Source: Cyanobacteriota bacterium (GTDB lineage Bacteria > Cyanobacteriota > Cyanobacteriia > PCC-6307 > Cyanobiaceae). From it: a stretch of DNA of 5,145 nucleotides. Below, one piece after another: positions 1,389 to 5,122 of the stretch (its first letter is position 1; the number at the start of each line of letters is the position of its first letter). The stretch covers positions 1-5,145 of the forward strand of contig CANHSW010000182.1 in NCBI GenBank assembly GCA_947463165.1, read 5' to 3'. The notes beneath the pieces are model-generated. The model saw only the letters and a list, made by a program, of their open reading frames with translations, made no database searches and was not told the origin of the DNA. Both the position numbers and the translations under genes were made by a program.

Positions 1389-1412
1389 AAAAAACCGCGG
1401 GTTTCCCCGCGG
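1389..1412 (-). terminator. Rho-independent terminator of the Hint-domain gene
   Basis: A perfect 7-bp GC stem (CCGCGGG at 1395-1401 pairing with CCCGCGG at 1406-1412, 4-base loop 1402-1405) is flanked on the left by six A (1389-1394). Read on the minus strand this is a strong hairpin followed by a run of six T, ending about 80 nt after the Hint gene stop. On the plus strand the bases after the hairpin (CAATCAAATC) are not T-rich, so it is unlikely to work as an intrinsic terminator for the dehydrogenase gene, which converges on it. Confidence 0.85.
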
Positions 1413-1489
1413 CAATCAAATCTAACTAATTGAACCGGCTAGATAAACTAACTAGTTGACAATCAGCGGGTCAAGATTGAGCTAGAGGC

Positions 1490-2437
1490 TCAAACCAGAG
1501 CCAGTTCCTTGGCTTCGGTGTTCAGCTCGAGCTTGGCGGCAACGGCTGCGGGGATCTGGCGGGAGAAGGCGATGCGGGGCATGTCGAGCTCCTGCATCAG
1601 TTCGCCTTCGCCGTAGAGGGCAACGTACTCGGAGTAGTTGTCCCAGCTCTGACGGCTGAAGCCATTGGTGCGGTAGCTGGAGAAATAGCTCTCGGTAGCT
1701 ACGCCATTGGCCCAGATCAGCTCGTGCTGGTCGAGCTCGAGGTTGAAGTAGGTGAGCTCGGTGGCGTTCCACTCGGTCACGCGCTCAACGGAGGCGTGGT
1801 CGATCAGGGCGCCAGCCTCGATCAGGTTGCCTTCCAGATTAACGGCGTGGGAGGGGCTCATCAGCAGGTCGGCGGTGGCACCGAAGGCGCCAGCGGCAAC
1901 GCGGATGGGGTTCTTGCCGGTGGCCAGCAGCTCGTTGAAAGAGCGGGTGCTTTGGCACACGAACTTCAGAGCCTTGACGCCATTGGCGGTGCTGATCAGG
2001 TCGCCGATCTGCAGTTCTTCGATGGCCTTTTCGCCTTCGGGAGTGCGGATCTTGGTGCCAGCAACGAAGCAGACAACCAGGTCCTTCAGCTGAATGCTGA
2101 TGGCTTGATTACCAGCGTTGGAGGGAGCACCACCGTTGAAATCGTAGTAGTAATAGCTACCAACACCATCGGTGGTGATGACACCGCCGCCGAAGGAGGA
2201 GCTATAACCGAAGTAGTACTGGTCAGCAGCACCAACGAAGTCGAGACCTTCGCTCCTCTCAAAAACGCCATTGCTGTCGACTACGTCGAAGCTTGCGGTG
2301 AGAGAAGTAACCTTGGTACCAGCAACGGTTTTCCAAACCGGAGCAATGGGCGTACCTGAATTGACGATTTTTACAGAGCTTGTAAAAGTTACGCCACGGT
2401 TGCCAGTGAATGCGCCGAAATAGTTAACGGTAGCCAC
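1490..2437 (-). CDS. Hint-domain protein (Hint_2-like, hedgehog/intein-type)
   Basis: A 315-residue protein in three parts. Residues 1-122 are a beta-like, Gly/Ser/Thr/Tyr-rich region without signal peptide or membrane helix, including DQYYFGYSSSFGGG (72-85) and a YYYY run (95-98). Residues 123-251 form a Hint domain: the first residue of the core is Cys123 in CFVAGTKI, followed by TPEGEKAIEELQIGDLI (132-148), PIRVAAGAFG (177-186), the block-B-like MSPSHAV with His197, and LDQHELIWANGVATESY (235-251). Residues 252-315 are a tail containing SWDNYSEYVALYG and DMPRIAFSRQ. The arrangement resembles the Hint_2 family, where ANG is followed by ES rather than the His-Asn of inteins. Cys123 and His197 could support an N-to-S acyl shift, but the Asn needed for splicing is missing, so cleavage or acyl transfer is possible and splicing unlikely. 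The start is GTG 2437: an in-frame TAA lies three codons upstream and the next Met is residue 193. Composition differs from its neighbours (bases 2101-2160 are 48% GC). The role is unknown; export by a signal-less route such as type I secretion is speculation. Confidence 0.85.
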   Translation of the reverse strand: MATVNYFGAFTGNRGVTFTSSVKIVNSGTPIAPVWKTVAGTKVTSLTASFDVVDSNGVFERSEGLDFVGAADQYYFGYSSSFGGGVITTDGVGSYYYYDFNGGAPSNAGNQAISIQLKDLVVCFVAGTKIRTPEGEKAIEELQIGDLISTANGVKALKFVCQSTRSFNELLATGKNPIRVAAGAFGATADLLMSPSHAVNLEGNLIEAGALIDHASVERVTEWNATELTYFNLELDQHELIWANGVATESYFSSYRTNGFSRQSWDNYSEYVALYGEGELMQELDMPRIAFSRQIPAAVAAKLELNTEAKELALV

Positions 2438-2559
2438 AGTTTGTTAAAGCTTGAGTTTTCAGGCCGCAATGGCTCTGATGGGTGCAAACCTAGCTGACTT
2501 GATTGCGAAGTGTCTCTGCCCAGGGCGAATCCATCGCTATGCGCACAGCGGCCTGCGTT

Positions 2560-2571
2560 TTTTGGCCAAAA
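2560..2571. promoter_or_regulatory. Perfect 12-bp palindrome in the divergent intergenic region
   Basis: TTTTGGCCAAAA reads the same on both strands. It lies in the 266-bp region (2438-2703) between the divergently oriented Hint gene and CofE-like gene, 123 nt from the Hint start codon. Such a site could be an operator, but I found no convincing -10/-35 pair beside it on either strand and no second copy. The rest of this intergenic region shows nothing else I can support. Confidence 0.2.
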
Positions 2572-2703
2572 GCAGCGGTTTTGCTTCGGCTCTGGGGCAA
2601 AAAGTGCTTAAGGGAGCGTCGGAGGCTTGCCAGCGGCCTGATTGGCCCTCGATTCAAGCTGAGGGGCCACCTACGCTCCGCCCATTCGCAGCCCAGCTCA
2701 GAC

Positions 2704-3900
2704 GTGCCGTTTCCGCTGTTCACCCCGCCGCCGCTGGCCTGCCTGCTGCTGGCCTTGGCCCTGCTGGCGGCAGCACTGCTGGTGCTGGAACTGCGCCATC
2801 GGCTGCGACCAGCCTCGCCCCTGCGGCTCAGCGCCGGCGACTGGCGGGTGCAACGCCAGGAAAGCGGCGTGCAGGTGCAGGGCACGATTGCGATCAGCAA
2901 CCCCCACCGGCGCATGGAGGTGTTTGTGCCGGAGTTGAGCCTGCGGCCCACCCTGCTGGGCCGGGCTTCCCTGCAGGGAGTAGAGATAAATAGCCAGGTA
3001 ATAAGCCGCCATCCGGATGAGCCGGCACGGCCAGACAACTACTGGTTTGCCTATATCGTGAAGGCGGGCAAGAGCACCTCGGCCCAGGTGAAGCTCTCGA
3101 TCACCGCAGCCGAGGGCCTGGATCTGCCCATGCTGCTGGACACCCTCTGGCTGGAGATCCTCTGGGTGAATTACGGGCCCTTCGGGCGGCTGCAGCGCCG
3201 CGATGGCCTGCTGGTGCCGCTGCGGCGTCCAGCCCCCGCCATTCCCTCCCAGGCCCAGTGGCTGGCGGGGGAAGGCTGCCAGGTGCTGCCGATTCGCACC
3301 CACCTGCTGGGGGTGCTCGATGACCCTGCCGCCGTTTTGCGCCATTACGCCGGCTCAGTGCTGCAGCCAGGGGATGTGCTCACCATCGGCGAGACGCCGC
3401 TGGCGGTGATTCAGGGGCGCTACCACCACCCCGAAACCGTGACGCCCTCCGGCCTGGCCCGCTTGTTATGTCGGGCCTTCCATCCCACCAGCTCCCTGGC
3501 CACCGCCTGCGGCATGCAGAGCCTGATCGACCTGGTGGGGCCCGCCCGGGTGCTGCTGGCCTGGCTGATCGGCACCGCCCTCAAGCTGGTGGGCCTCAAG
3601 GGCTGGTTCTATCGGCTGGCGGGCGAACAGGCGCGCCTGATCGACGACATCACCGGCACCACCCCCCCCTACGACCAAACCATCGTGCTCGGCCCAGATC
3701 AGCCGGGCCCCTTCTGTGCCGCCATGGCCCGCGAGCTGGGGGTGGGGGTGGCCGTGGTGGATGTGAACGACCTGGGCCGGGTGAAGGTGCTGGCCGCCAG
3801 CCAGGGCTGCGATGAAGCGCTGCTGATGCGGGCCCTGCGGCCCAATCCCGCCGGCAATGCCAACCAGCGCACCCCCCTGGTGCTGATCAGACCAGCTTGA
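2704..3900 (+). CDS. Membrane-anchored F420-0:gamma-glutamyl ligase-like protein (CofE-related, cyanobacterial type)
   Basis: From GTG 2704 the product is 398 residues. It has one N-terminal hydrophobic helix (about 11-28, PLACLLLALALLAAALLVLE) followed by ELRHRLRP, so a single membrane anchor is likely. Residues 40-185 are a beta-rich domain I do not recognise. From about 195 the protein resembles CofE: IRTHLLG (His200), QPGDVLTIGETPLAVIQGR (222-239) and RLAGEQARLIDDITGTTPPYD with Asp314-Asp315, followed by TIVLGPDQPGPFCAAMARELG. CofE adds glutamates to coenzyme F420-0, using GTP and divalent metal; whether this protein does so is doubtful, because picocyanobacteria are not known to make polyglutamylated F420. 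The frame is open back to TTG 2503, with an in-frame ATG at 2539. I prefer GTG 2704 because it sits just before the hydrophobic helix and the 67 codons upstream do not look coding (mixed third positions, poly-Phe/Lys stretches). There is no clear Shine-Dalgarno site. Confidence 0.75.
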   Translation: MPFPLFTPPPLACLLLALALLAAALLVLELRHRLRPASPLRLSAGDWRVQRQESGVQVQGTIAISNPHRRMEVFVPELSLRPTLLGRASLQGVEINSQVISRHPDEPARPDNYWFAYIVKAGKSTSAQVKLSITAAEGLDLPMLLDTLWLEILWVNYGPFGRLQRRDGLLVPLRRPAPAIPSQAQWLAGEGCQVLPIRTHLLGVLDDPAAVLRHYAGSVLQPGDVLTIGETPLAVIQGRYHHPETVTPSGLARLLCRAFHPTSSLATACGMQSLIDLVGPARVLLAWLIGTALKLVGLKGWFYRLAGEQARLIDDITGTTPPYDQTIVLGPDQPGPFCAAMARELGVGVAVVDVNDLGRVKVLAASQGCDEALLMRALRPNPAGNANQRTPLVLIRPA

Positions 3901-3930: not shown

Positions 3931-4025
3931 GTCAACTCTGGAGAGGCGGGTCAACTCTGGAGAGCCGGGTCAGATCTGGAGAGCCGGGTCAGATCTGGAG
4001 AGCCGGGTCAGATCTGGAGAGATCG
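3931..4025 (+). repeat. Five tandem copies of a 19-bp repeat
   Basis: Units begin at 3931, 3950, 3969, 3988 and 4007. The unit is GTCAGATCTGGAGAGCCGG. The first two copies carry AACTC where the last three carry AGATC, and the first and last copies diverge at their outer ends (AGAGGCGG and AGAGATCG). Copies 3-5 contain the palindrome CAGATCTG. The array fills most of the 169-bp gap between the CofE-like gene and the GNAT-like gene, ending 44 bp before the ATG of the latter. A 19-bp unit is not a multiple of 3, which argues against a coding role. There are no spacers, so it is not a CRISPR array. Confidence 0.95.
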
Positions 4026-4069: not shown

Positions 4070-5122
4070 ATGAGCCGCGAACCATGGCGTGACCACTGGC
4101 GGATCGAGGAGCTCCAGGGCTGGCACCTCAGCCTGCTCAAGGATCCGGTGTTTCTGCCCCTGCGGCCGCTGCTCCAACGCGCTCTCTGGCTGAACTGGCC
4201 GGAACACTTGATCCAACTGCTGGCCCAGCGAGCCCCGCTCGCTCCCCAGGTGCTGGTGGCCTTTGCGCCCCACAGTCAAGACAGCATCGGTCTGATCGTT
4301 AGCCGCCGCTTGAACCGCAGTGGCAGCTGCTGGCAGCTGCAACACCTGCGCACCACGAGCGCCGCCGATCGTCGTCGTCTCGGCCAGGCCCTGGTGCAGC
4401 AGGCGATCGTCCGTGGGCGCGGTGCCAGCAGCTGGATCGCCGAGGCTTCCAGCTTGGACAGCGCCAAGCTGGCCCTGCTGCGGGAACTGGGCTTCCAGCC
4501 CCTGCGCAGCGATCAGCTCTGGCTATGGCAACCGGAAGCCGCCAGCGAACCGCCACAGCCACCGCCGTCACCCCCGCAGCCGCCTGCGGAGCTGCAGCTG
4601 CAGAGCCTGCAGCGCCGCAACGCGGCCTTGCTCTGGCATCTGGAGCAGGTGGCCTGCCCCGCCCAATTGCGCCAGTTGCTCGATCGCAGCCTCGAGGATT
4701 TGCTCGACCAGAGCCAGGGCAAGGGATGGCTGCTGCTTGATCCCAGTCGAGGCCAGGCGGTGGCTGGGGTGCGCTGGCTTGGCGCCCACGCCGGCGGCGG
4801 CCACGACGTGGAGTTCACGGTGCAGGAGGGCTGGCAGCAGCAACTGATCGGCCCCGCCGGAGAGTGTCTGCTGCGCAAAGCCGCCCAGCAGTTGGGCGGC
4901 GCTGGCCTATGGCTGCGCTGCGACGTGCGCGATCGGGCCCGCCAGCAATGGTTGAGCGGTTTGGGGGCCCAGGAGCGCGGTGAGCGGGTGCTGATGGCCC
5001 GCAGTGTCTGGCGCCGCCACGGACCACCGGCCCTGGTGAGCTCCAGCAGCCGCATTGAGGCCATGTTGGAACAGCTGCAACCTCGGCGCCGGCCCCTGCC
5101 CACCCCCCTGGCCCCCCGCTAG
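4070..5122 (+). CDS. Tandem GNAT-like N-acetyltransferase-related protein
   Basis: A 350-residue soluble protein built of two halves that each look like a degenerate GCN5-related acetyltransferase (acetyl-CoA dependent N-acyltransferase fold). In the first half (about 15-153) VLVAFAPHSQDSIGLIVSRR is followed by RRLGQA (102-107), which fits the acetyl-CoA pyrophosphate-binding pattern R/Q-x-x-G-x-A, and by the typical late segment AKLALLRELGFQPL. A proline-rich linker PPQPPPSPPQPP (161-172) follows. The second half (about 175-316) has QAVAGVRWLGA, HDVEFTV and QLIGPA (258-263), again fitting the same pattern, then LWLRCDVRDRARQQWLSGLGA. The tail after about 318 is Pro/Arg-rich and probably disordered. 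Substrate unknown. ATG 4070 is the first start in frame after the 19-bp repeats, and no Shine-Dalgarno site precedes it. The stop is 5 nt before the next possible gene, suggesting co-transcription. The fold assignment rests on motif pattern only. Confidence 0.7.
   Translation: MSREPWRDHWRIEELQGWHLSLLKDPVFLPLRPLLQRALWLNWPEHLIQLLAQRAPLAPQVLVAFAPHSQDSIGLIVSRRLNRSGSCWQLQHLRTTSAADRRRLGQALVQQAIVRGRGASSWIAEASSLDSAKLALLRELGFQPLRSDQLWLWQPEAASEPPQPPPSPPQPPAELQLQSLQRRNAALLWHLEQVACPAQLRQLLDRSLEDLLDQSQGKGWLLLDPSRGQAVAGVRWLGAHAGGGHDVEFTVQEGWQQQLIGPAGECLLRKAAQQLGGAGLWLRCDVRDRARQQWLSGLGAQERGERVLMARSVWRRHGPPALVSSSSRIEAMLEQLQPRRRPLPTPLAPR

Follow-up and report, generated by a model that had tools for sequence, protein, structure and literature searches.

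A Hint_2 module in a picocyanobacterial protein

The DNA analysed here (the window) is a stretch of 5,145 nucleotides, contig CANHSW010000182.1 of assembly GCA_947463165.1, from a Cyanobacteriota bacterium of the Cyanobiaceae, a host family for which the label picocyanobacterium is right. On its minus strand, at 1490..2437, lies a gene for a 315-amino acid protein with a GTG start at 2437 and a TGA stop at 1490-1492. The protein consists of an N-terminal part, here called the passenger (residues 1-122, 2072..2437), a Hint_2 domain (residues 122-253, 1679..2074) and a C-terminal tail (residues 251-315, 1493..1687), and it is treated below as a candidate self-processing protein. The reading frame had been proposed in a preliminary description made from the letters alone, and it proved genuine, as close relatives of the same length begin at the same place (61 relatives were found).

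The preliminary description had also called this a Hint-domain protein, and a profile search agreed. Pfam Hint_2 (PF13403) matched residues 122-253 with 102.9 bits (E 2.6e-29), above its curated cut-off of 28.4 bits, and the window protein is a member of this family. The predicted model of the module has the HINT fold and matches solved HINT structures, including those of bacterial intein-like (BIL) domains. Searching the PDB by sequence gave weak matches only, the best of them to the intein 6qaz (E 0.017), and a search of NCBIfam with the window protein returned no match; NCBIfam supplied no Hint-specific name for this protein or for its relatives P0054, P0061, P0068 and P0091. In the fold alignment Cys123 (codon 2069..2071), the predicted nucleophile of an N-to-S acyl shift, coincides with residue 258 of the hedgehog structure 1at0 and with residue 1 of inteins. 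Ser250 falls on the terminal Asn of inteins and is followed by Tyr251.

Conservation of these residues was assessed in an automatic alignment of 202 modules, the rows of which are not independent (for example, L008 and L045 represent a single gene). The set holds the window protein, 20 sequences from genomic loci and 181 database proteins, namely the 61 relatives mentioned above and the 120 listed among 242 found in a wider search. Position 123 is Cys in 200 modules and Gly in 2. His197 (1847..1849), the block-B His that ends an S-P-S-H motif, is His in 199/202, and a second nearly invariant His in the block F region, His238 (1724..1726), is His in 198/202. At the positions of the penultimate His and terminal Asn of inteins the window protein has Glu249-Ser250 (1688..1693); the former is Glu in 198/202 and the latter Ser or Thr in 200/202, with two gaps, so that loss of the terminal Asn is a property of the whole set and not of the window protein alone. 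Position 250 is followed by Phe or Tyr in 196/202, not by Cys, Ser or Thr. This pattern of conservation exceeds chance. The preliminary description was thus right in placing Cys123 and S-P-S-H at the acyl-shift positions and in noting that a His-Asn end is lacking, but it omitted a Val from the last motif, which reads ANGVATES. Among 141 representatives (less than 80% identical around the Cys, after removal of sequences that lack the Cys or are too short) an aliphatic residue usually precedes the Cys (Leu 40, Val 32, Ala 21, Ile 10). Two relatives, P0059 and P0060, combine Gly at the catalytic position with a different tail and are natural candidates for inactive forms.

The conserved module is longer than the Pfam model. 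It comprises Hint_2 and a tail of about 65 residues, residues 123-315 in the window protein, and this tail lies almost wholly beyond the Pfam match. Its most conserved residues in the 202 modules are Arg262 (193), Asn267 (193), Pro287 (192) and Arg288 (183). A profile of the tail, run against eight genomes of the family, found it only in Hint frames, save for a single weak, fragmentary match beside a broken copy in genome G035. The module is mostly C-terminal: 183/202 sequences continue for no more than 260 residues from the Cys, and the count from Cys to end has a median of 193 and quartiles of 188 and 201, some sequences being ended by their contigs. At least three of the last four residues are hydrophobic in 114 of 169 full-length modules (48/85 after similar ends were removed); for control tetrads taken from these tails the figure is 333 of 2390. 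We also noted 76 loci in viral contigs (L063-L138) that encode a Hint_2-like stretch; some of these matches extend into the tail region.

Passengers and their exchange

The passenger of the window protein is predicted to be beta-rich (AlphaFold2 (AF2) model of the passenger alone, predicted local distance difference test score (pLDDT) 93.8) and contains no Cys. Its description as Tyr/Gly-rich was fair, since its 122 residues include 17 Gly and 8 Tyr, compared with 13 and 6 in the remaining 193. It had further been called an unfamiliar N-terminal domain, and no solved fold indeed matched its model above background, but it is one exchangeable passenger among many. When it was used as the query, 15 proteins were found (among candidates limited to a similar total length), all of them with PF13403. 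Elsewhere the passengers in front of the module range from 36 to 1,807 residues, each extreme being cut by a contig end, and their domains include RTX, FG-GAP, RCC1 and Calx-beta repeats as well as a nuclease. By our reading of the table by eye, 51 of the 120 listed relatives carry a Pfam domain besides Hint_2, RTX in eight of them. Of 151 genomes sampled from the family, 10 have Hint_2, a single genome having as many as six matches. In the window genome a second module ends a frame of 1,934 residues that matches endonuclease/exonuclease/phosphatase and runs off its contig at either end. A third copy, cut at its 5' side, lies on contig 312. The idea of a stand-alone Hint protein did not survive these comparisons, given that long frame and the position of the module at or close to the C-terminus in many long proteins elsewhere.

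Passengers vary far more than modules. Among the window protein and 38 close relatives (741 pairs) the mean identity is 0.53 for the passenger (minimum 0.35) and 0.94 for the module (minimum 0.86). The window locus shares synteny with contig DGYA01000114.1 of Cyanobacteria bacterium UBA5018 (L008, which is L045 of the congeneric genome G059). In their aligned parts the flanking genes of the two encode proteins with 88.5-97.4% identity and agree at 569/635 fourfold sites, and the module agrees in 186/193 residues and 86/94 fourfold sites, while the passenger agrees in only 78/122 residues and 23/42 fourfold sites (55%). Fisher tests, which treat fourfold sites as independent, separated the passenger from the module (p 2.4e-6) and from the flanks (p 4.8e-8) but not the module from the flanks (p 0.71). 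Selection acting only on the protein would not make fourfold sites agree less often, which makes exchange with a diverged copy the more economical interpretation. Three genes of G059 (L041, ended by its contig, L042 and L043) have modules 90-94% identical and different passengers. Their ungapped identity is 8, 18 and 6 of the 30 bases that precede the Cys codon, compared with 26, 26 and 26 of the 30 that begin with it, and the gapped profile likewise places the left end of their shared DNA at this codon. The opposite arrangement was seen between L043 and a gene of the window genome, L058, which are 86-100% alike in all twelve 30-base bins ahead of the Cys codon, whereas their modules are similar only over about the first 110 bases.

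Together these comparisons suggest, at the level of sequence, that passengers are exchanged around a constant module. The syntenic locus might instead owe its passenger divergence to fast evolution of one lineage with no exchange of copies. In favor of fast evolution, and against exchange at this locus, the passengers are still homologous at the residues given above, and DNA agreement climbs gradually to the border, with 17, 20 and 24 matches in the successive 30-base bins that lead up to the Cys codon and 28, 27 and 29 in those that follow. The fourfold sites have nevertheless diverged along with the residues, and the three G059 genes, whose passengers differ, lose their similarity at the Cys codon; we regard fast evolution as decidedly unlikely. 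If passengers are exchanged in this way, the process would generate variation at the surface of picocyanobacteria. Three further observations concern gene copies. At L042 (contig 57 of G059) two Hint module genes stand in tandem, and the second, a 176-amino acid frame without the Cys end, is possibly a donor or a relic. P0002 and P0022 are perhaps neighbors (the longest contig is 5768 for both), with a module identity of 0.97 and a passenger identity of 0.37. The same may hold for P0026 and P0037 (4833 for both), with 0.88 and 0.56.

Export and the predicted release of the passenger

We consider it moderately probable that the module of residues 123-315 detaches the N-terminal passenger by way of a Cys123 thioester, most likely during export or once it is complete. 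No obvious Sec-type signal is present in the window protein, and a type I-like exporter would carry it out of the cell. Judging from fold and conservation, the Hint domain with His197 and His238 would then drive an N-to-S acyl shift at Val122-Cys123. Splicing and Asn cyclization cannot follow, because position 250 is not Asn, and the thioester would therefore pass to water or to an outside nucleophile, so that the passenger would be either freed or tagged at its C-terminus. Choice of the exporter or of the nucleophile may fall to the tail, a role like that of the adduct recognition region in hedgehog-type proteins. The hedgehog-type thioester route suggested in the preliminary description, although still a prediction, is the most economical mechanism in view of the intact first half, the missing Asn and the conserved tail.

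Several features of the sequences point indirectly to export of the passenger. Some of the passenger types hint at it. A strong N-terminal hydrophobic stretch was present in 6 of 145 sequences at a stricter threshold and in 28/145 at a looser one, by a rough score with no positive control. Ten of 15 passengers looked at are free of Cys, including those of L046 (1,032 amino acids) and L043 (1,010 amino acids); others have up to seven. The window genome also encodes a cyclic nucleotide monophosphate (cNMP)-binding ATP-binding cassette (ABC) exporter followed by an HlyD-like adaptor (G000:C25:7331-11970, L059), likely a type I-like exporter. Near the Hint genes of L046, L050, L052 and L054 we found genes for DUF4915, TPR and glycosyltransferase family 41 or family 2 proteins, neighbors that may imply glycosylated surface proteins.

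Several findings weigh against passenger release coupled to export. The best NCBIfam matches of the L059 pair stay below their cut-offs (HlyB-type 578 versus 725.55 bits, HlyD-type 166.2 versus 208.65). TIGR01842-like ABC genes do not single out the Hint carriers, since they are present in 151/151 genomes and 14/14 controls, compared with Hint_2 in 10/151. The Pfam search found no RTX repeat in the window protein, and 69 of the 120 listed relatives have no Pfam domain other than Hint_2. More than 260 residues follow the Cys in 19/202 modules, and two modules have Gly in its place. Proline at −1 is poor for the acyl shift in inteins, and its presence in 11 of the 141 representatives speaks against a uniform shift. 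Finally, the open-licence literature, a scope outside which most subscription papers fall, yielded no paper describing Hint_2 chemistry or cleavage.

The Hint chemistry could alternatively be a relic, with Hint_2 and the tail serving only as a folded C-terminal domain for export or anchoring and the protein staying whole. The C-terminal placement, the hydrophobic tail ends and the loss of the terminal Asn throughout the set all fit such a domain. A structural relic, however, need not retain Cys in 200/202, His197 in 199/202 and His238 in 198/202 modules, and we judge this explanation unlikely, if quite credible. It is very improbable that the module is a splicing-type intein that is excised while passenger and tail are ligated: inteins do have the HINT fold, but here the terminal Asn is replaced by Ser or Thr and the penultimate His by Glu almost throughout, the following Phe or Tyr is no substitute for Cys, Ser or Thr, and the tail belongs to the conserved module. 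Hint or intein-like domains are also known from contact-dependent toxin systems of other bacteria, in which a C-terminal toxin would be released. An arrangement of this kind seems just as remote for the window protein, given that only the conserved tail of about 65 residues follows the Hint domain and that the variable part is N-terminal, the opposite of toxin polymorphism. A more ambitious version of the thioester reading is that the module is a bacterial counterpart of hedgehog sorting, which links the C-terminus of the passenger to a nucleophile of the envelope or matrix while recombination between copies of the module lets the cell swap passengers at the Cys codon. One module would then combine the roles of processing enzyme, sorting signal and anchor for the recombination that varies the surface; we put this forward as a doubtful extension, to which we give little weight.

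Comparison with known systems places the window protein with the Hint_2 proteins of other bacteria such as Alphaproteobacteria, which match the same profile, carry it at or near the C-terminus and have the Cys, S-P-x-H and E-(S/T) motifs. Some of these follow RTX passengers, as in P0108 (Xanthobacteraceae), and the tails of P0061 (Marivita) and P0052 (Paracoccaceae) differ from that of the window protein. Type A BIL domains are defined by a terminal His-Asn, in place of which the window protein has Glu249-Ser250. The HINT fold of the module is close to solved BIL structures (2lwy and Tetrahymena BIL2, 6y75); the title of 6y75 names a C1A-N143A variant, which gives the native domain a terminal Asn where Hint_2 has Glu-(Ser/Thr). 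The module shares the fold, the residue-1 Cys and the block-B His with gp41-1 and other class 1 inteins but differs in lacking a terminal Asn and a following Cys, Ser or Thr and in its C-terminal position. Some passenger types, the few N-terminal hydrophobic stretches and the Cys-poor passengers resemble type I secretion substrates, from which the window protein differs in having no RTX repeat. Like the Hog part of hedgehog (1at0), the module is a Cys-first Hint domain with no Asn and an extra C-terminal region, and by analogy it would work like a hedgehog processing domain. The protein is neither an intein, for want of the Asn, nor a hedgehog, as the Hedge signaling domain is not among its Pfam matches. 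Its tail is likened to the sterol recognition region in layout. In hedgehog-type proteins the Hint domain is followed by an extra region for sterol or adduct recognition (PMC2362128), and the analogy is strengthened by the conserved tail at this very place.

Hint_2 is common in bacteria. If the module cleaves, cyanobacteria and other bacteria would possess a self-contained means of trimming or tagging exported proteins, and protein ligation would gain a natural set of thioester-forming domains that tolerate many N-terminal partners.

Other features of the window

A terminator-like hairpin (1394..1413, minus strand) lies directly 3' of the Hint gene. It came from a consensus scan of both strands of 1330-2700, which gave 3 sites, compared with 1.4 (standard deviation 1.5) in shuffled sequences. 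On the plus strand, 2503-3900 encodes a 465-amino acid protein with a sub-threshold match only to F420-0:gamma-glutamyl ligase (E 0.021) and a congeneric counterpart that is 96% identical over 413 residues. Positions 4070-5122, also on the plus strand, encode a 350-amino acid protein with weak sub-threshold GNAT matches in each half, possibly a double acetyltransferase. Between these F420-ligase-like and GNAT-like genes, at 3937-4021, a 19-base unit is repeated in a tandem array of 4.5 copies with a 95% match.
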